From IMG/VR virus record IMGVR_UViG_3300045119_000263, positions 1-20,195 of that record: DNA of 20,195 bases. The stretch is one strand, 5' to 3'. This DNA comes from a virus. Of the stretch, positions 3,642-17,036 are shown piece by piece. The position numbers and the translations under genes were made by a program. Under the pieces are notes generated by a model. The model searched no databases. It was not told where the DNA came from and saw only the letters and a list, made by a program, of their open reading frames with translations. Each line of letters starts with the position of its first letter. The stretch's first letter is position 1.

Positions 3642-4288
3642 CACCGACCCCCTTTGGCATGCGCCGCGATCACCTTCGCGGAGGCAATCCCCCCCACCGC
3701 CATCCGGACCAACCCCCACGCATCATCTTCGGCCTGCGTCGAACTGGCCGCTTCGATCTCCAGCCGCACCGTCACCTCGACCGTGTGCATGCTGTCCGCC
3801 TGCCCGTCGATCACCTTCCGCCGCCGCGCCGTCTTGATCTCCTGCCGCAGCTCGCGCACCGTGAGCCCCTCCGACGCCGACCGCTCCATCCACTCGACCT
3901 GTTCCTCCGGTTCGAGCGCTGCCACCTCTGAGACATGCCCGACCGACGGGGCCAGATCGCGCGCCTTCGCGGAGGTATTCCGCACAATGTATCCCAGGTT
4001 GATCAACGATTTGTGTGTATACGCCGACTGCGACCGGATCGACTGTTCCAGCTTGTCGCGCCAGTCGGCCCGGCCTTCACCGTAGTTCCAGAGTTCGCCT
4101 ATCCAATAGGGCGACCCGTCACCACAGCCGAGCGCGAAATCCAACGCCGCCGCAAACTGCGCCAGCGTCGGCCGTCCGATCACCTCAATCGATCGCGCCT
4201 TCAGATGGAACCCGTCGAGCTCCATCGGCCGCTCATCGAACAGGAACGCATCCTGTCGGCGAGCGAGATCGGACGGCCCCTTCGCCAT
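3641..4288 (-). CDS. Phage protein with a ParB-C-like helical segment, 215 aa
   Basis: I start this gene at ATG 4288 (MAKGPSDLARRQDAF) rather than at the frame opening at 4354, because the upstream gene ends at 4293 and GGAGCGG lies just before. Residues 66-105 (LWNYGEGRADWRDKLEQ, then SLINLGYIVRNTS) and 118-150 (HVSEVAALEPEEQVEWMERS, then GLTVRELRQEI) match a pattern I know from uncharacterised phage and integrative-element proteins. In that pattern a helical 'linkage' region ends in a 'sv-ReLR' helix reminiscent of ParB/KorB-like regulators. The C-terminus is a beta-rich segment (TVEVTVRLEIEA). A DNA-binding or regulatory role is plausible but not shown. It is coupled to the miniprotein downstream. 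Confidence 0.65.
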   Translation of the reverse strand: MAKGPSDLARRQDAFLFDERPMELDGFHLKARSIEVIGRPTLAQFAAALDFALGCGDGSPYWIGELWNYGEGRADWRDKLEQSIRSQSAYTHKSLINLGYIVRNTSAKARDLAPSVGHVSEVAALEPEEQVEWMERSASEGLTVRELRQEIKTARRRKVIDGQADSMHTVEVTVRLEIEAASSTQAEDDAWGLVRMAVGGIASAKVIAAHAKGGR

Positions 4289-4292
4289 GACG

Positions 4293-4604
4293 CTACACCC
4301 GCTCCGGCCAGTGCCACGTCCCCGGCGCCTTCTCCTCATCGTGTTTGATGCCACGATTGAAGAACAGACCGGACGGATTCGCGACCATGATTCCGATCCG
4401 TTCGTCGGGATCCGGCTCCGCGCTTCCGAGTGGTACCCCTACCTCCGTCACGATCGCCGCCCGGCACACCCCGGCCGGAAACTCGCCGCCAGGCGTCCCG
4501 TACGCGACGTAATGAACGACCCGCCCAACACTCGGCTTCTGCTCCATCTTGCCCGCCTTTCCGTAGTAAGGGATACCGCCCAGGTTCCAATGCTCGCCGT
4601 ACAC
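4293..4604 (-). CDS. Conserved phage protein of unknown function (VHYVAYGTPGGE type)
   Basis: The core VGRVVHYVAYGTPGGEFPAG, then CRAAIVTEV, then VANPSGLFFNRGI and a C-terminal GTWHWPERV matches a small protein I recall from many phages and prophages, always without assigned function. Two starts are possible. GTG 4604 lies three bases after the upstream stop with AGGGG six bases before it. ATG 4547 sits just before the conserved core, which is where family members usually begin. I give the longer form. A small beta-barrel-like fold would suit the alternation of short hydrophobic strands, but this is a guess. Confidence 0.7.
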   Translation of the reverse strand: MYGEHWNLGGIPYYGKAGKMEQKPSVGRVVHYVAYGTPGGEFPAGVCRAAIVTEVGVPLGSAEPDPDERIGIMVANPSGLFFNRGIKHDEEKAPGTWHWPERV

Positions 4605-8575: not shown

Positions 8576-9076
8576 TCATAGGCGCACTCTACGCCCCTCC
8601 TCGTTAGGAATCAACCCCGGACTTTCTGGCTGTAAGAGCTGCTCGATCCACGAGCAGATGCGAATGGCGATCACGTCCCCGGCGCGGTCCCACGTCCCGG
8701 CATAGTCCGGCCCGGCCAGCCGACCCGCCGTATGGAAGCTCACCTGACCCGTCGGCGTGTCTACGTAGAGCACCCATCGGTGGTATGCCTGCGCCGGATC
8801 GTCCTTCCAGCCCCACCGGACACCGAGCGCCTCGGCATGCTGCGTCAGCACCGAGACCAGGTTACTCATCGCCCAATTCTTCCGGTCATACGCCAGCCGA
8901 CGATACGAGCCTTTGCCGGGGATCCCGCCGCGATAGACCTTCGCGCGATCGGAGTTCTTCTTAGCCCGGAACAGGTTCAGGGCCAGCACGCCAGCCGGCC
9001 CCTTCGTCTCAAGCTCTGCGTAGAGCGCCTTCGTCGACGCGCCATCAGACCCCTTGAACACCGCGAGTGGTGTCAT
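8576..9076 (-). CDS. Conserved phage protein of unknown function, 166 aa
   Basis: The sequence FKGSDGASTKALYAELETKG, then LNLFRAKKNSDRAKVYRGG, then YDRKNWAMSNLVSVLTQHA and WVLYVDTPTGQVSFHTAGR matches a family I have seen beside phage recombination and replication genes, without known function. The C-terminus (WDRAGDVIAIRICSWIEQLL) is one helix. The conserved Lys/Arg positions and the VSFHTA strand suggest a folded nucleic-acid or nucleotide-related protein; this is a guess. ATG 9076 overlaps the helicase stop as ATGA. It is the last gene before the noncoding gap, and no minus-strand terminator follows it. Confidence 0.72.
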   Translation of the reverse strand: MTPLAVFKGSDGASTKALYAELETKGPAGVLALNLFRAKKNSDRAKVYRGGIPGKGSYRRLAYDRKNWAMSNLVSVLTQHAEALGVRWGWKDDPAQAYHRWVLYVDTPTGQVSFHTAGRLAGPDYAGTWDRAGDVIAIRICSWIEQLLQPESPGLIPNEEGRRVRL

Positions 9077-11820
9077 CGACGCACCGGCCGCCGAGACGCC
9101 GCCAGATCCAATAGATCCGACGCCTCCCCTTTGGTAATCGCTTTGGGATTATGCGGCACGCGCCACCGCGCCAGCAGTTCCAGCTGCTTCACTGACGCCC
9201 GTCCCAATCGCCACGGCGCATCCGGGGTTTTCATCTTCGCCACCGATCCCCGCTCCTGGAGGATGAACGCCTCCGCGAGCCCGGCCGCCGAGTCCTCAGT
9301 CGCCACGCCGGTTGCCAGCGTCCGCTGCCGTGCCGGCGGTCGGAGGCCCTTCTCGTTCGCCGATGGCCTCAGCGTGCACACGATCTGCCACTTGCTCAGG
9401 AGATCGCGCGAGACTTCGAGCACCTCCGTGCCGTCGGCCCACGGGTACTGCAACCGGAACGTATCCGGCCCGGTCTTGATCCAGTTGAACTGTCGCCCGA
9501 CCCCAAACGCCCCAAGCGAGGGGATCGCCCACACGTCAAACGTCGTCGCCCGATCAAGCAGCTCCTGGAGCGTGAACCGCGCGCCTCCGCTGAACAGCGC
9601 CTCGAGATCGAACGTGCGGTACTTCTCTTTCAGCGCCTCGAGCTGCGCCTTCACTGACTCGAGATCCTGCCCGTTGGTCAGCAGCCCCGGCGGCAGCCCA
9701 TAGAGCACCGGCGCCGTCTGGAGCGAATGCTTCCGCGCGATGTCGACCATATCCACCACGACGCACCGCCGCTTGCCTGGATAGGTCCGCAGTCCCCGGC
9801 CTATGCACTGCTCGTAAACCGTGGCGCTCTTGGTCGGCTTCGCCATCAAGATACAGCCCGTCAGCGGCAGATCCGTCCCTTCGGTGAATATCTGGCAATT
9901 GGTGAGCACCTGGATCCCGCCCCGCGTATAGCTGGCGAGCGTCTCGCGGCGCTCCTCCTTCGGCGTCTCACCCGACACGGCCGCGGCATTCACGCCGCAC
10001 CGCCGGAACTCCGCCGCGAGATCGTGTGCGTGCGCCACGTCCACCGTAAACGCGATCGTCGACTCCTTGCCGGCGTGTAGCTGCCAGGACTCCACCGCGA
10101 GCCGATTGCGGCGCTCTGTATTCACCGACTCCGCCAGATCCTTCTGGTTGAACTCGCCCCGCATGACCCGTACATCGTCCAACGACTCCGCCGTCTCAAT
10201 CACCCACGGCTCGATCGGCACCAGCCAGTGATCATCGATCGCTTGCTTGATCGGATAGCTGAACGCGATCGTTTGGAAGACGGCGGCAAGTCCGACGGCA
10301 TCCGTTCGGTTCGGCGTCGCCGTCACCCCGAGCAGGAGCCGATCCGTTGGCGCGATCACGTCCCACCCGTCCAACGCCTTCGTCATCAGCTCGACATCGT
10401 CGTACGTGGCCGCTTCGCTCTCCGTACTGTCCGACTCGTCAGCCTTCGGTAGAAAGCCGAGCCGCGCGAGCGTGGTGCGATAGGTCGCGGCCGCCGCATG
10501 GTGACAGTTCGATACGGCGAATCCATCGGCGAAGTAGGTGTGCAGATCCTCTACTTCGAGGTCATAGACGCGACCTTCAGGACACAGGCGCTCAAATTCT
10601 CCAGTACGGCCCGGTTGGAGAATCTCAACACGCGCCACCCGCGCCCAGTCAGAAAGGCGTCCTTCCTCGCATCCTGAGCTTTCCGCACCATCGCGAAATG
10701 GCTGAACCCGTCCACCTCGATCGCGATCATCAGCGCCCGGTTCGCGATGTCCACTTTGTAGTGCGTCGGCCAGTAGCCGCGCCTCCCCGTTCTGACGATC
10801 ACTTCCGTCGGCCATCCGAGCGCGTCGGCCAGCATCTGCTGGGGTACCGGAATGGCCCGACCGTTCCCGCCCCGCACCTTCGGACGGTGCTGCAATGCAC
10901 GCAGGGTGAGCCGCATCTTCTCGCGCGCTGCCGCGTGGCGCATCGGATTCCTGAGCGTCATACGCTGCGAGGCGTACCGGCGATTCGTCGCGGCCATCCG
11001 TCGCGATGATTCCTGAGACACCCACTGGTCGCGATGCGCTGGCGAACAGTACGCCCGCCCCGAGCGCCGCCACCCATCGATCGCCCACTTGACTGTCAAC
11101 GTGACCGGCGCGTGGCAGACATGGCACTGAGTCTCTACTGGCTGCGGCATGGTGCCCAATCATACACCCCACCGAGACGGCTCCAGCACGCATCCACCCG
11201 ACCGAGGTCCATAGCTTGTGACTCGGCGTGCAGACAATGACGCCCCGATCCGTCGTCAGGCGGACCAACGCCTGCGTTGTCTTGTGCAGCACCCGAACGA
11301 CGCGCCGCCGCGACAACTGGAGCGTCCTGGTATCGAATGCCGTCACCAGATCGCCGACGCGGATCGCCTCAATCGGCCGCCCATCTACGACCGTGCCAGG
11401 CGGGAAACATTCATCGACGACGACGATCCGAAACGTGTGCCGCGCCAGCAGCTGCTCGAGCCGCTGATACTTCCGCGCCGAGAGCGACTGAATCGACGCG
11501 ATGATCACATCCGCGTACCGGCTCGAGCGCCGCTCGCCCTGCTCGATATCGACCATCACGCCCGGATTTTGCTGCCGGATCTTGTCGGCCGCCTGATCGA
11601 GCAACTCCTCCCGATGCGCGATCACCAACATCGACGCGCCCCGCTTCGGCAGTCCATCGATCCAAGCTCGTAGCCGCGGTCGCTTCAGCATCGCGGCCAC
11701 ACATACCGTTTTCCCGACCCCGGTCGCAGCTTGCACCAGTACGCGATTCTGCCCGCGATCGAAGAAAGCTCCCTCGACGGCATCAAGGAATGCTGTCTGA
11801 TACGGCCGCAGCTCAGTCAT
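9073..11820 (-). CDS. SF2 (DEAD/DEAH-type) helicase precursor containing an intein
   Basis: One uninterrupted 915-codon frame encodes a superfamily 2 helicase split by an intein. Extein N (1-137) has LRPYQTAFLDAVEGAF, Walker A QAATGVGKT (30-38), LVIAHREELLDQ (motif Ia), IIASIQSLS, and the first half of motif II, VVVDE. The intein spans 138-438. Extein C begins CHHAAA, restoring DECH, then has GVTATPNRTD (498-507, motif III), TNCQIFTEGTDLP (640-652, motif V) and QCIGRGLR (671-678, motif VI), plus a C-terminal region of unknown role. The spliced protein would be 614 aa, near the size of phage SF2 helicases. Because the intein cuts the Mg/ATP motif, activity requires splicing. ATG 11820 directly follows the upstream stop. 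The partner is probably the replication or recombination machinery. Confidence 0.92.
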   Translation of the reverse strand: MTELRPYQTAFLDAVEGAFFDRGQNRVLVQAATGVGKTVCVAAMLKRPRLRAWIDGLPKRGASMLVIAHREELLDQAADKIRQQNPGVMVDIEQGERRSSRYADVIIASIQSLSARKYQRLEQLLARHTFRIVVVDECFPPGTVVDGRPIEAIRVGDLVTAFDTRTLQLSRRRVVRVLHKTTQALVRLTTDRGVIVCTPSHKLWTSVGWMRAGAVSVGCMIGHHAAASRDSVPCLPRAGHVDSQVGDRWVAALGAGVLFASASRPVGVSGIIATDGRDESPVRLAAYDAQESDAPRGSAREDAAHPACIAAPSEGAGRERSGHSGTPADAGRRARMADGSDRQNGEARLLADALQSGHREPGADDRDRGGRVQPFRDGAESSGCEEGRLSDWARVARVEILQPGRTGEFERLCPEGRVYDLEVEDLHTYFADGFAVSNCHHAAAATYRTTLARLGFLPKADESDSTESEAATYDDVELMTKALDGWDVIAPTDRLLLGVTATPNRTDAVGLAAVFQTIAFSYPIKQAIDDHWLVPIEPWVIETAESLDDVRVMRGEFNQKDLAESVNTERRNRLAVESWQLHAGKESTIAFTVDVAHAHDLAAEFRRCGVNAAAVSGETPKEERRETLASYTRGGIQVLTNCQIFTEGTDLPLTGCILMAKPTKSATVYEQCIGRGLRTYPGKRRCVVVDMVDIARKHSLQTAPVLYGLPPGLLTNGQDLESVKAQLEALKEKYRTFDLEALFSGGARFTLQELLDRATTFDVWAIPSLGAFGVGRQFNWIKTGPDTFRLQYPWADGTEVLEVSRDLLSKWQIVCTLRPSANEKGLRPPARQRTLATGVATEDSAAGLAEAFILQERGSVAKMKTPDAPWRLGRASVKQLELLARWRVPHNPKAITKGEASDLLDLAASRRPVRR
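10507..11409 (-). other. Intein in helicase motif II (DE|CH), 301 codons
   Basis: This is a protein-splicing element at residues C138 to N438 of the helicase frame. Block A is CFPPGTVVDGRPIEAIRVGD with nucleophile C138. Block B is GVIVCTPSHKLWT with the T198-x-x-H201 motif. Block F is RVYDLEVEDLHTYFADG (417-433), and block G is FAVSN|C with N438 and extein nucleophile C439. The penultimate residue is Ser instead of the common His. No LAGLIDADG or HNH domain exists in this frame. Residues of about 223-395 read as Arg/Ala/Gly/Ser-rich nonsense without a stop codon. That stretch carries the nested endonuclease in another frame. Excision would restore the DECH box exactly. Confidence 0.93.
10551..11159 (-). 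CDS. Vsr/DUF559-like homing endonuclease nested out of frame in the intein
   Basis: This is a 202-aa protein in a different frame from the helicase, wholly inside the intein. Residues 12-42 form a zinc site (C12-x2-C15, C38-x3-H42). A NUMOD3-like basic region follows (RMTLRNPMRHAAAREKM, 66-82), then HRPKVRGGNGR. The nuclease core is THYKVDIAN (D137), AIEVDGFSHF (E148, D150, H154), DARKDAFL (D163, D167) and GWRVLRFSN. This is the pattern of the EDxHD/Vsr-like homing endonucleases, known as free-standing genes between split-intein halves and exemplified by I-Bth0305I. The start is TTG 11159 with GGTGGGG seven bases upstream, or ATG 11150. The last 29 codons or so overlap the intein C-terminal region; the stop TAG lies inside block F codons. 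Confidence 0.88.
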   Translation of the reverse strand: MGTMPQPVETQCHVCHAPVTLTVKWAIDGWRRSGRAYCSPAHRDQWVSQESSRRMAATNRRYASQRMTLRNPMRHAAAREKMRLTLRALQHRPKVRGGNGRAIPVPQQMLADALGWPTEVIVRTGRRGYWPTHYKVDIANRALMIAIEVDGFSHFAMVRKAQDARKDAFLTGRGWRVLRFSNRAVLENLSACVLKVASMTSK

Positions 11821-12825
11821 TCAGACCGCCCTCGTTTTCTTCGTATGGCGAACCCCAGGCCACCCATCGAGCCGTTCATGCAGCGAGCGTCCGTACTCCG
11901 CGAGCTTGACCGGATTGACCATGAATAGATCCGCCGGAATCCCGAAGCGATTCTTGTAATCCTCCGGCGCACACCCCAGGAAGGCCGTCATCAGACTGCG
12001 CTCGTCCAGCACTTCCCCTCCCCAGGTGGTCCGGTCCGACATGCCGGCCGCTCGCTCGATCGCCGGCCGCACCTCCACATGCTCGACCACCACCGGCGCC
12101 GCGGCCTTCGCTGTCACCTGCCGGCGGATCGTCGCCGCCTGCTGCTTCGCCTTGATCGCCAGCTGGATCTTCGCGCTCGAGAGGAGCCGCGCCGCCGTTG
12201 CCAACGGATCCTTGTAGCCGGCGACCCGCGCCGACGTCTGCCCGTTCCCGCATGCCGCGAACTGATCGACGAACACCGTCTCGCGCGCCGAGAGCTCCGG
12301 CGACGCCTCCTCCGCCGCGACCGCCGCGGCCTCGAGCGACGCCAGCTCCGCCTCCCGCTCCTGCCGCGCCAGGAACTCCCGCTCCTCGCGCTCGCGCCAC
12401 TCCTGATCCGCTGCCCGCCGGCGCTCGCCCTCGACGTACGCATTGTGGAGCCGATTCCCGATCGCGTTCGCCTCCTCGAGCGCCTTCGCCCCGATGTCCC
12501 GCTTGGATGTCAGCCGCCGATGGAACCGATGGATCACCGCCGTAATCTGCCAATGCGCCTCGATCTCCTTCCGATCCTCCGTTGTCGTTTTGATGAACTT
12601 CTGAACCGCCACATCCTCCGCAGCGTTCGCCGGCGGCTTGATCGCTTGCGCCGCCTTCAGCATCGCCATAGCGCCGATCTCGAGCTCCCGAGCTTGCAGG
12701 AAGAACGCCCGGAGCCCCTGTACCCACCCGGCGATCTGCCGCCCGTCCGTTGTCGCCAGTGCCTCGTCCTCCGAGAGCACCGGCCCGACGTCGATCACCT
12801 CCGCCACCTTCTTCGACGCCTTCAT
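11821..12825 (-). CDS. Coiled-coil phage protein with a terminase-small-like helix-turn-helix, 334 aa
   Basis: The likely start is ATG 12825 (MKASKKVAEVID), which overlaps the pentapeptide gene stop as ATGA and has GCGGGGGTGGTCCG upstream. Residues 38-115 are helical (KTTTEDRKEIEAHWQITAVI, HRFHRRLTSKRDIGAKALEE). Residues 116-173 form a long charged coiled coil. Residues 177-230 (SARETVFVDQFAACGNGQTS, ARVAGYKDP, ARLLSSAKIQLAIKAKQQ) closely resemble the helix-turn-helix of terminase small subunits, including this phage's own TerS. The C-terminus (VLDERSLMTAFLGCAPEDYK, IPADLFMVNPVKLAEYGRSL) is conserved-looking but unrecognised. The stop immediately precedes the helicase start. It may be a DNA-binding partner of the helicase; that is inference from adjacency. 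Confidence 0.75.
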   Translation of the reverse strand: MKASKKVAEVIDVGPVLSEDEALATTDGRQIAGWVQGLRAFFLQARELEIGAMAMLKAAQAIKPPANAAEDVAVQKFIKTTTEDRKEIEAHWQITAVIHRFHRRLTSKRDIGAKALEEANAIGNRLHNAYVEGERRRAADQEWREREEREFLARQEREAELASLEAAAVAAEEASPELSARETVFVDQFAACGNGQTSARVAGYKDPLATAARLLSSAKIQLAIKAKQQAATIRRQVTAKAAAPVVVEHVEVRPAIERAAGMSDRTTWGGEVLDERSLMTAFLGCAPEDYKNRFGIPADLFMVNPVKLAEYGRSLHERLDGWPGVRHTKKTRAV

Positions 12826-13505
12826 CGGACCACCCCCGCGATCGTCGCCATCCGTTCCAGATGCTCGACAATCGCCAGCGACTCGTCGCCCAACCGCGTC
12901 CCGCCGCGCGTCGTCGTCCAATGCGCCCGCGCCTCCTCCGGAGTGAACCACCGACAGCCCGCCTTGATCTTGATCCCGCCAGCCTGGAGCACGAACGCGC
13001 GGAACTCGTACCCGTCCGATCGCGTCGCCGCTTCTCCGGCTGCTGCGATCTTGTCTCCGCTCAGGTTCGAGCCGCGCAGGTTCGAGCCGCGCAGGTTCGA
13101 GCCGCGCAGGTTCGAGTCGCGCAGGTCCGAGCCGCTCAGGTTCGAGTCGCTCAGGTTCGAGCCGCGCAGGTCCGAGCCGCTCAGGTCCGAGCCGCGCAGG
13201 TCCGAGCCGCTCAGGTCCGAGCCGCGCAGGTCCGAGCCGCTCAGGTTCGAGCCGCGCAGGTTCGAGCCGCGCAGGTTCGAGTCGCGCAGGTCCGAGCCGC
13301 TCAGGTCCGAGCCGCGCAGGTCCGAGTCGCTCAGGTTCGAGCCGCGCAGGTTAGAGCCGCGCAGGTTCGAGCCGCTCAGGTCCGAGCCGCTCAGGTTCGA
13401 GCCGGCCGCCCTTGCCTGCCTGAGCGCATCCTTCGCGCTCGTCGCGTCACCACTCCAAATGGTCGCGCCGCTCCACCGGTTAACGATCGTACGTACCGCC
13501 ATCAT
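12822..13505 (-). CDS. Pentapeptide-repeat protein with phage C-terminal domain, 227 aa
   Basis: After a short N-terminus (MMAVRTIVNRWSGATIWSGD) residues 35-149 are 23 tandem pentapeptides of the form (G/D)S(N/D)L(R/S), which should fold as a right-handed quadrilateral beta-helix. The C-terminal domain (GYEFRAFVLQAGGIKIKAGC, RWFTPEEARAHW, TRLGDESLAIVEHL) matches a domain I know at the end of phage pentapeptide proteins, with the 'AGCR-F' and 'HW' signature. Some pentapeptide proteins mimic DNA and bind gyrase; nothing here proves that, and the small residue is Ser rather than the usual Ala. The start ATG 13505 has GGAGGGGG seven bases upstream; ATG 13502 is an alternative. The upstream stop overlaps it. 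Confidence 0.85.
   Translation of the reverse strand: MMAVRTIVNRWSGATIWSGDATSAKDALRQARAAGSNLSGSDLSGSNLRGSNLRGSNLSDSDLRGSDLSGSDLRDSNLRGSNLRGSNLSGSDLRGSDLSGSDLRGSDLSGSDLRGSNLSDSNLSGSDLRDSNLRGSNLRGSNLRGSNLSGDKIAAAGEAATRSDGYEFRAFVLQAGGIKIKAGCRWFTPEEARAHWTTTRGGTRLGDESLAIVEHLERMATIAGVVR
13059..13403 (-). repeat. Array of 23 nearly identical 15-bp units (pentapeptide coding)
   Basis: The unit is CAGGTTCGAGCCGCG on the plus strand, with only a few variable positions (T/C, G/T, C/T). Variants change Asn to Asp, Arg to Ser or Gly to Asp in the protein. The unit length is a multiple of three, so gain or loss of units keeps the frame, and long shadow frames open on both strands. Confidence 0.9.
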
Positions 13506-13840
13506 TCCACCCCCTCCGATAATCCGAGCCCCTTCGCCGTCTCCGCGTCCTCGACCGCCGACTGCACCAGCCACGCCTGACACCGCGCACACGTCGGCTC
13601 CCGCGAGAACTCCCGCTCCCGGATCCACAGCCCGCACACCGTCTCCTGCTGCCGACCGTTCACCCGCGTAAACGGCGGGATGTAGTGTGTCGGCGCTTTC
13701 GCCCGCTCCACCGTCACCTCGGTACCGTCGGCCTTGACGATCGTGACCGACGCATACGGCACCACCTCCGGCCGGAGAATCGCCTGCGCCCGCGCGAACG
13801 CCGCGTCCCGCTGATCCCGCCCGATCATCTTGCTTCGCAT
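13502..13840 (-). CDS. Hypothetical protein with Cys motif, 112 aa
   Basis: The start is ATG 13840 (MRSKMIGRDQRDAAFARAQA), with GGAGGGGTGGACAAC upstream; the open frame extends to 13882, but its first codons precede the ribosome binding site. A beta-rich middle (ASVTIVKADGTEVTVERAKA) is followed by a cysteine pattern C-G-L-W, then C-A-R-C, which could hold zinc (CGLWIREREFSREPTCARCQ). The C-terminus is acidic. The family is not recognised. It is the first gene after a promoter-like site at 13885-13913 and is coupled to the pentapeptide gene downstream. Confidence 0.65.
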   Translation of the reverse strand: MRSKMIGRDQRDAAFARAQAILRPEVVPYASVTIVKADGTEVTVERAKAPTHYIPPFTRVNGRQQETVCGLWIREREFSREPTCARCQAWLVQSAVEDAETAKGLGLSEGVE

Positions 13841-13884
13841 GTTGTCCACCCCTCCGCGCCAGGAATCCCGCCCGACGCACACGC

Positions 13885-15993: not shown

Positions 15994-16224
15994 TCAGCGT
16001 TTCCGCTCCTCCAGATACTTCCGCGTCTCCTCGGCACCTCGCGCGAGAAATTCCGCCGTGTCCCCGTCCGACACTTGCGCGATCGTCCGTCCCGTCACCG
16101 CCGCATACAGCTTGCCGAGTTCGCGCCGTGCCTGTTCGAATGCCTTCAACCCGGCCGGCGTCATGATTCCCTGAATCGGCCGCGACTGGACATCCTTCCC
16201 TCTAAAGACTGCCGGCCGTCCCAT
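15994..16224 (-). CDS. Small basic phage protein, 76 aa
   Basis: The start ATG 16224 (MGRPAVFRGKDVQSRPIQGI) has AAAGGGGGTGGGAACG directly upstream; the open frame to 16347 is shadow of the HNH gene. A basic arm and the segment MTPAGLKAFEQARRELGKLY are followed by VSDGDTAEFLARGAEETRKY, two helices separated by a turn. The layout would suit a small ribbon-helix-helix-type or other DNA-binding regulator, but no family is certain. It overlaps the HNH-AP2 gene by 23 nt, lies 16 bp before the ERF gene and belongs to the same transcript. Confidence 0.65.
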   Translation of the reverse strand: MGRPAVFRGKDVQSRPIQGIMTPAGLKAFEQARRELGKLYAAVTGRTIAQVSDGDTAEFLARGAEETRKYLEERKR

Positions 16225-16711
16225 CGTTCCCACCCCCTTTAGCCTCTGCCGCGAACTCTCCGAATGCCCTGAACGCCGCCGATCGTCGCGCTTCAGATGC
16301 CTCTGCCTTCGTCGCGAAGTAGCCCAAATGGTACTTTTTGTAACCAACCATGATCACCGCCGACCACGGTTTAGACTTCAGCCTCGAAATGAAACACACG
16401 CCGAGCACGCCTGAACGCGCATGTACTGAGTGTCTATTCGCCATGTTCTGCTGATGCGAGCACGCGCGTAGGTTCTTTTTCCTATTGTCTAGACCGTCAC
16501 CATTCCTATGGTCAATCTCGCGATCGACACCAACGCCGGCAATCTCTCGGTGCATGTAAATCGACCGTCGCGACACCTGCCTGACCGCATGCCATACGGT
16601 CCGTCCCTTCCGCTCTGTTTTCTTCGCCCACCATTTGAATCTACTCATCGCAGCGTATACATCGTCGTCGACGATAGCGGACTTACCGGCCGTCAGCGGA
16701 ATCAGACGCAT
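16202..16711 (-). CDS. HNH-AP2 homing endonuclease
   Basis: This is a 169-aa protein with the complete layout of the phage HNH/AP2 homing endonucleases. MRLIPLTAGKSAIVDDDVYA and FKWWAKK form the N-terminal domain. The nuclease is IYMHREIAG followed by EIDHRNGDGLDNRKKNLRAC, then SHQQNMANR, carrying the HNH residues. The AP2-like DNA-binding part is SGVLGVCFISRL, SAVIMVGYKKYHLGYFATKA and EARRSAAFRAFGEFA. ATG 16711 has GGAGGGCGACAG before it. The gene overlaps the KTSC gene by 29 nt and the following small gene by 23 nt, so insertion has remodelled both junctions. It is the first of several homing-type genes in the run. Confidence 0.9.
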   Translation of the reverse strand: MRLIPLTAGKSAIVDDDVYAAMSRFKWWAKKTERKGRTVWHAVRQVSRRSIYMHREIAGVGVDREIDHRNGDGLDNRKKNLRACSHQQNMANRHSVHARSGVLGVCFISRLKSKPWSAVIMVGYKKYHLGYFATKAEASEARRSAAFRAFGEFAAEAKGGGNDGTAGSL

Positions 16712-17036
16712 CTGTCGCCCTCCTGACGTCGGCTGCGTAGTTCGCACAGCCGCAACTTTCACAGCATTCGCCGATCCACCCCGGCCGATCGCCGCACTTG
16801 GGACACGTTCCCGTCATCTTCTCGCCGCGATACTGCCCCCGGATGTTCGCCGCATAGAACTTGCCGCGTGACTCCGCGAGATACCACGACGCGAACACTT
16901 CCGCCGGGACATCGGCATAGTGGAACACGTCGCCCGACTTGAACCGCAGCCCGGCGATCCGTTTCCGATCGTTGTAGCCGATCGCCGCGAGATTCGACGA
17001 TGCGATCTCCTCGAGGTCGATTTTTTCGGCGATCAT
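16683..17036 (-). CDS. KTSC-domain protein with zinc ribbon
   Basis: Residues 13-70 match the KTSC domain: SSNLAAIGYNDRKRIAGLRF, KSGDVFHYADVPAEVFASW and ESRGKFYAANIRGQY. This small domain is common in phages and near recombination or lysine-tRNA-synthetase fusions; its exact activity is not known. Residues 78-95 form a zinc ribbon (C78-x2-C81, C91/C92-x2-C95). The remaining tail overlaps the HNH-AP2 gene. ATG 17036 has only a weak CGGGAAC ribosome binding site. It is the first gene after the promoter-like site at 17075-17103, so it may be an early protein. Confidence 0.85.
   Translation of the reverse strand: MIAEKIDLEEIASSNLAAIGYNDRKRIAGLRFKSGDVFHYADVPAEVFASWYLAESRGKFYAANIRGQYRGEKMTGTCPKCGDRPGWIGECCESCGCANYAADVRRATDASDSADGR

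Follow-up and report, generated by a model that had tools for sequence, protein, structure and literature searches.

The helicase locus and its two reading frames

The window, which is the whole stretch of 20,195 nucleotides of viral DNA that was analysed (IMG/VR record IMGVR_UViG_3300045119_000263), carries a helicase gene whose coding sequence contains an intein, and the DNA of this intein also encodes a nuclease in a second reading frame. The features of the locus are the following:

9073..11820, minus strand: helicase gene, DEAD/DEAH-type, one uninterrupted frame of 915 aa
11410..11820, minus strand: N-extein, 137 aa, ending in the Walker B sequence ..IVVVDE
10507..11409, minus strand: 301-aa intein (C1 to N301), in frame with the helicase
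11209..11229, minus strand: intein block B, TPSHKLW (T61, H64)
10551..11150, minus strand: putative homing endonuclease, EDxHD/Vsr-like (DUF559), 199 aa and a stop codon, read in +1 with respect to the intein
10614..10641, minus strand: dual-coded segment, giving GWRVLRFSN in the nuclease (10640-10614) and the strand RVARVEIL in the intein (10641-10618)
10507..10566, minus strand: intein blocks F/G (YDLEVEDLHTYFADGFAVSN)
9076..10506, minus strand: C-extein, beginning C+1 HH; spliced motif DECHH

The helicase open reading frame (11820..9073) has no stop codon, including through the complete intein. Its product was matched by the Pfam families ResIII (2.7e-19), Helicase_C (5.8e-11) and PT-HINT, and by the PHROG family phrog_16, DNA helicase (1.8e-70). 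The insertion lies directly after the DE of Walker B in 94 of the 100 parsed loci of this type. A self-splicing intron with an internal ORF was considered and rejected, as Rfam gave 0 matches within the window and the insertion is in frame and carries intein motifs.

The intein

The first-pass annotation of this DNA had described a contiguous intein with a complete nuclease in a different frame, an arrangement confirmed here by the stop-free host frame and by the match of the nuclease to DUF559 (E = 1e-10). The intein begins with C1, continues through block B TPSH (T61/H64) and block F/G VYDLEVEDLHTYFADGFAVSN, and ends with N301, which is followed by Cys+1; blocks A, B, F and G, C1, TxxH, the terminal Asn and a C/S/T residue at +1 were thus all found in the host frame. 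At the profile level, NCBIfam intein_Cterm matched the helicase-frame protein, the Pfam Intein_splicing match fell below the curated cut-off, and, among 30 aligned inteins, TIGR01443 matched 23 and TIGR01445 matched 22. In the AF2 model of the intein, most positions in the stretches 1-90 and 261-301 had a pLDDT above 90, compared with ~42 in the spacer. Comparison of this model with the Mtu RecA mini-intein 3igd (TM(target) 0.84, rmsd 1.9) identified a HINT fold. The penultimate residue is Ser (VSN); DnaE split inteins end in ASN, yet they splice. Because the host frame stays open, it would be possible for the helicase intein to splice in cis.

The nuclease and its translation

All 39 nuclease relatives were also matched by DUF559, and the residues D137, E148, D150 and H154, which the first-pass annotation had singled out, proved to be invariant among them, together with D163. 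The AF2 model of the nuclease (pLDDT 93.6) found its best fold match in I-Bth0305I (3r3p) with a probability of 0.99, but with E = 0.016. The window nuclease, a putative site-specific homing endonuclease, has the catalytic residues and fold of the EDxHD (Vsr-like) group, preceded by an N-terminal Cys zinc-finger-like region. A profile search of PHROGs gave no family for it, and the seven phage records examined annotate the region only as helicase or hypothetical protein. Its stop codon TAG (10553-10551) overlaps the end of the intein sequence YDLEV.

A 202-aa product starting at TTG 11159 had originally been proposed for this gene. That codon has a good Shine-Dalgarno (SD) sequence (-6.9), yet a stop occupies its position in the relatives L072 (71% identity) and L073 (67%), and the sequence GGnCACC-ATG is common to these two and the window; the start is therefore ATG 11150 and the product is 199 aa in length. 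ATG 11150 is itself preceded by a poor SD sequence (-2.8 kcal/mol), and a strong one is absent in about half of the relatives. Across the loci, ATGs located just before the first CxxC nevertheless showed stronger SD pairing than did extein sites drawn at random or extein ATGs in the +1 frame (p = 3e-10; here and below, the loci share descent, so that p-values overstate the independent evidence). This enrichment speaks for a nuclease that is translated separately, from its own start. The alternative, a programmed ribosomal frameshift that fuses the nuclease to the N-terminal part of the intein without separate initiation, would need a fixed phase such as the one found in every locus with parsable boundaries (see below), and the nuclease ORF does run far upstream of the likely start in several loci. 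The SD enrichment argues against it, and in L072 and L073 the ATG follows in-frame stops at a distance of only three codons, which leaves almost no room for a shift; together these points make frameshifting unlikely.

In a subgroup of loci (L002, L023, L028, L029, L034, L038, L043, L048 and L049), the nuclease apparently starts before block B; block B would then be dual-coded as well.

Most differences between pairs of relatives fall at third positions of nuclease codons. Between L007 and L008, a close pair, the differences by nuclease codon position number 3, 0 and 31, indicating strong purifying selection on the nuclease. Between the window and L072, the third-position excess follows first the host frame, then the nuclease and then the host frame again (22,15,42 / 48,40,83 / 2,1,10), and the switches coincide with the gene borders. 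These patterns bear on the possibility that the nuclease is a relic, dead or decaying, with only the intein function kept. Such decay would account for the locus L106 near 4007-4597 (313-kb contig, GC 0.33), in which the matched region of the nuclease is interrupted by TAA as its ninth codon while the intein host frame is open, so that the nuclease would be decaying and the intein kept, and it would also suit the short nucleases with open host frames in L047 and L052. The window nuclease, however, retains every invariant catalytic residue, its changes relative to L072 favour nuclease third positions, and the close pairs show strong purifying selection, so that a relic is improbable, more so than a frameshift.

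Synonymous codon choice keeps the host frame open

The significance of the open host frame was assessed by keeping the nuclease protein fixed, shuffling synonymous codons and counting the host-frame stops. For the window alone, the host frame was open in 6-10% of shuffles (P = 0.06-0.10). The initial judgement that an open frame is weak evidence therefore holds for the window by itself, but not across its relatives. The search for these used the nuclease rather than the layout as query, which left the host frame free to be open or closed, and it recovered the same layout in 146 loci, 110 of them non-redundant, from phages and bacterial contigs with GC contents of 0.28-0.67. In 109 loci, ~713 host-frame stops were expected from synonymous shuffling and 0 were observed, a zero that holds by definition, since the count took in loci found open; the weight of the test lies in the share of close relatives that are open, which is all but about a dozen, and in the improbability of each. 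The host frames of L072 and L073 are also stop-free.

A host stop requires a T-ending nuclease codon before AA, AG or GA, so that the exclusive use of C at this position keeps the frame open. Nuclease NNY codons in this context ended 1420 times in C and 0 times in T, compared with 2626 C and 3092 T elsewhere. No such avoidance was found before AA, AG or GA in chromosomal DUF559 controls (582 C/646 T), free-standing phage copies of the nuclease (46 C/129 T) or fractured genes (67/120). The signature is simple to test in other sequences: T never precedes AA, AG or GA in the nuclease. The spacer peptide is less conserved than the nuclease but stop-free through synonymous replacement of T by C. 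Conservation of the spacer as a protein was considered and rejected, as its seemingly conserved residues L217/Q218 are explained by the conserved HYK codons of the nuclease and its identity falls faster than that of the nuclease.

A chance shadow frame in GC-rich DNA, in which case the locus would be a fractured gene or a dead intein, is left some room by the shuffling result for the window alone. The stop deficit among loci down to 28% GC, the 1420:0 codon context and the differing controls go against it, making chance highly improbable here, and the shuffles and controls rule it out for the class.

The weakest alternative, that the locus is truly a conventional in-frame intein whose frames were joined or split through faulty sequencing or assembly, was raised for this metagenomic window by the first-pass annotation and can be set aside as negligible, since a compensating pair of errors would have to recur, always at the same two boundaries, in about 110 distinct loci, and the same frames occur in a second assembly (L001), in L072 and L073, and in isolate phage genomes (CP-T1, phi673, Vibrio lentus phages and MR14).

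A dual-coded β-strand and an invariant phase

One segment of DNA specifies both GWxVLRF, a motif of the nuclease, and RVxSVE[VI], a strand of the intein. This segment, with its TTG-AGA codons, forms a β-strand in both predicted structures and falls within residues 254-264 of the window intein, and the host-frame consensus at this position is R-V-[DE]-S-[VI]-E-[VI]. The Leu of the nuclease strand is encoded by TTR in 70 of 78 loci, versus 48% elsewhere (p = 5e-14), and the Arg by AGR in 79 of 106 loci, versus 33% elsewhere (p = 2e-16). These TTR-AGR choices yield Val-Glu in the intein. They are not demanded by stop avoidance, and the bias is absent at the strand in chromosomal control relatives.

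The nuclease is in the +1 phase in 100 of the 100 loci with parsable boundaries. In the opposite alternative frame, 96 of 109 loci contain stops that are synonymously unremovable, arising from a Met codon followed by A. No alternative phase other than +1 allows all host stops to be eliminated while the nuclease protein stays as it is, and +1 also encodes the intein strand. These two properties together probably account for the invariance of the phase. The shared strand coding, the C/T codon signature and the true start codon all go beyond the earlier description of the locus.

Proposed mechanism

The locus is very probably a mobile intein that splices in cis and carries its homing endonuclease as an overprinted gene instead of a fused domain, a reading built on the sequence comparisons and structure predictions above. 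A ribosome would read the host frame through helicase-N, intein-N, a disordered spacer of ~150 residues, intein-C and helicase-C, and the two intein halves would fold as one HINT domain that joins the helicase by splicing. A second ribosome would start at ATG 11150, inside the intein and in the +1 frame, and produce the free 199-aa EDxHD nuclease. This nuclease would presumably cut intein-less helicase genes at the Walker B site DE|C and thereby spread the intein.

Alleles of the insertion site and origin

At the site DE|CHH, one Vibrio siphophage helicase occurs in three forms: empty (1.024.O, DECHH), with a mini-intein (150 aa in K389 and others) or with an overprinted intein (356 aa in 1.088.O and others). 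The Vibrio phage helicases L064-L068 have natural mini-inteins of 143-150 aa in the position that the overprinted intein occupies elsewhere. The empty, mini and overprinted alleles at one site fit a mobile element, for which homing would be the likely means of spread. The mini-intein allele fits a nuclease gained by, or lost from, a mini-intein, and to this extent favours the first-pass suggestion that the locus is a step on from a mini-intein; the idea of a lone or transient intermediate did not stand, given 110 loci under selection. Relatives of each kind that had been proposed for a search, lacking the intein, lacking the nuclease or having stops in the spacer, were found as the empty, mini-intein and fractured forms.

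A fractured layout, its two halves sharing one phase, was found only in L022, L033, L035, L165 and L055. In the nuclease tree, the fractured group of L022 joins an open relative (SH-aLRT 93), with several branches being long, and fractured nucleases nest with moderate support inside the open group. Fractured genes may accordingly have been derived from overprinted inteins and not the reverse; one stop in the spacer suffices to fracture an overprinted intein, which bears on the origin of split inteins as well. The overprinted layout is the commonest state found in the nuclease family and, on the evidence of codon usage, is maintained by selection. Whether the two-frame intein should be seen as a separate mobile class, phase-locked by the dual-coded strand and synonymous stop removal and giving rise through later stops to fractured genes and some split inteins, is a broader proposal that may be right about as readily as wrong.

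Other arrangements were also encountered. L056 (2029-3465) carries the N-part of the helicase, the N-half of the intein and the nuclease in one frame and the C-half in another, making it an N-fused, C-split form of the element. L057 contains the single copy of a conventional in-frame intein with its nuclease. Free-standing nuclease genes also belong to the family, and three of them, in L108, L123 and L151, lie directly upstream of a helicase that has no intein at the site, although helicases of its type carry the intein in other loci; these three copies may reflect a stage before the present layout or may assist in homing.

Relation to known systems

Fractured genes, in which split inteins accompany EDxHD (Vsr-like) endonucleases, were reportedly described by Dassa et al. 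in 2009, a study cited in PMC12350094. They are found mainly in phage and share with the window the nuclease superfamily and its placement between intein halves, and L022, L033, L035, L165 and L055 are of this kind. In fractured genes, however, stops give rise to two separate chains, whereas the continuous host frame of the window would allow cis-splicing from one polypeptide. Conventional full-length inteins resemble the window in their splicing motifs and in the position of the nuclease between blocks B and F, but contain the nuclease in the polypeptide, whereas the window encodes it separately in the +1 frame. The locus is neither a usual in-frame intein nor a fractured gene, as the first-pass annotation had proposed; the constant +1 phase and the lack of a host stop bear this out.

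I-Bth0305I (PDB 3r3p), from a phage group I intron, is the best fold match of the window nuclease and gives a weak profile match to its catalytic core. Its host element is an RNA intron, whereas that of the window nuclease, with its N-terminal Cys zinc-finger-like region, is an intein.

Out-of-frame endonucleases in open host frames are known from ShiLan, in which an HNH endonuclease is inserted out of frame in a phage methylase and the host frame has no stops (PMC11855218). Both ShiLan and the window thus place a homing endonuclease in another frame of a stop-free host gene. ShiLan has an HNH nuclease and no splicing domain, and its insert is thought to be retained in the protein, whereas the window has a full HINT domain, an EDxHD nuclease and a dual-coded strand. 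An insertion of the ShiLan type was rejected for the window, where splicing blocks are present and the nuclease is DUF559/EDxHD. Split-intein fractured nucleases being likewise already known, the novelty lies in the combination: the literature searched, outside which most subscription papers lie, gave no description of a continuous splicing-type intein with an overprinted nuclease and a shared β-strand. The combination indicates that one stretch of phage DNA can sustain two structured proteins in different frames across distant phages, and it offers a source of inteins that are candidates for cis-splicing with a long disordered spacer in place.

The window also contains two other free-standing genes for HNH_3 endonucleases, at 2186-2662 and 16202-16762. 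The window gene at 12822-13880 contains a long run of pentapeptide repeats, and the repeat DNA gives rise to long open frames on the opposite strand.
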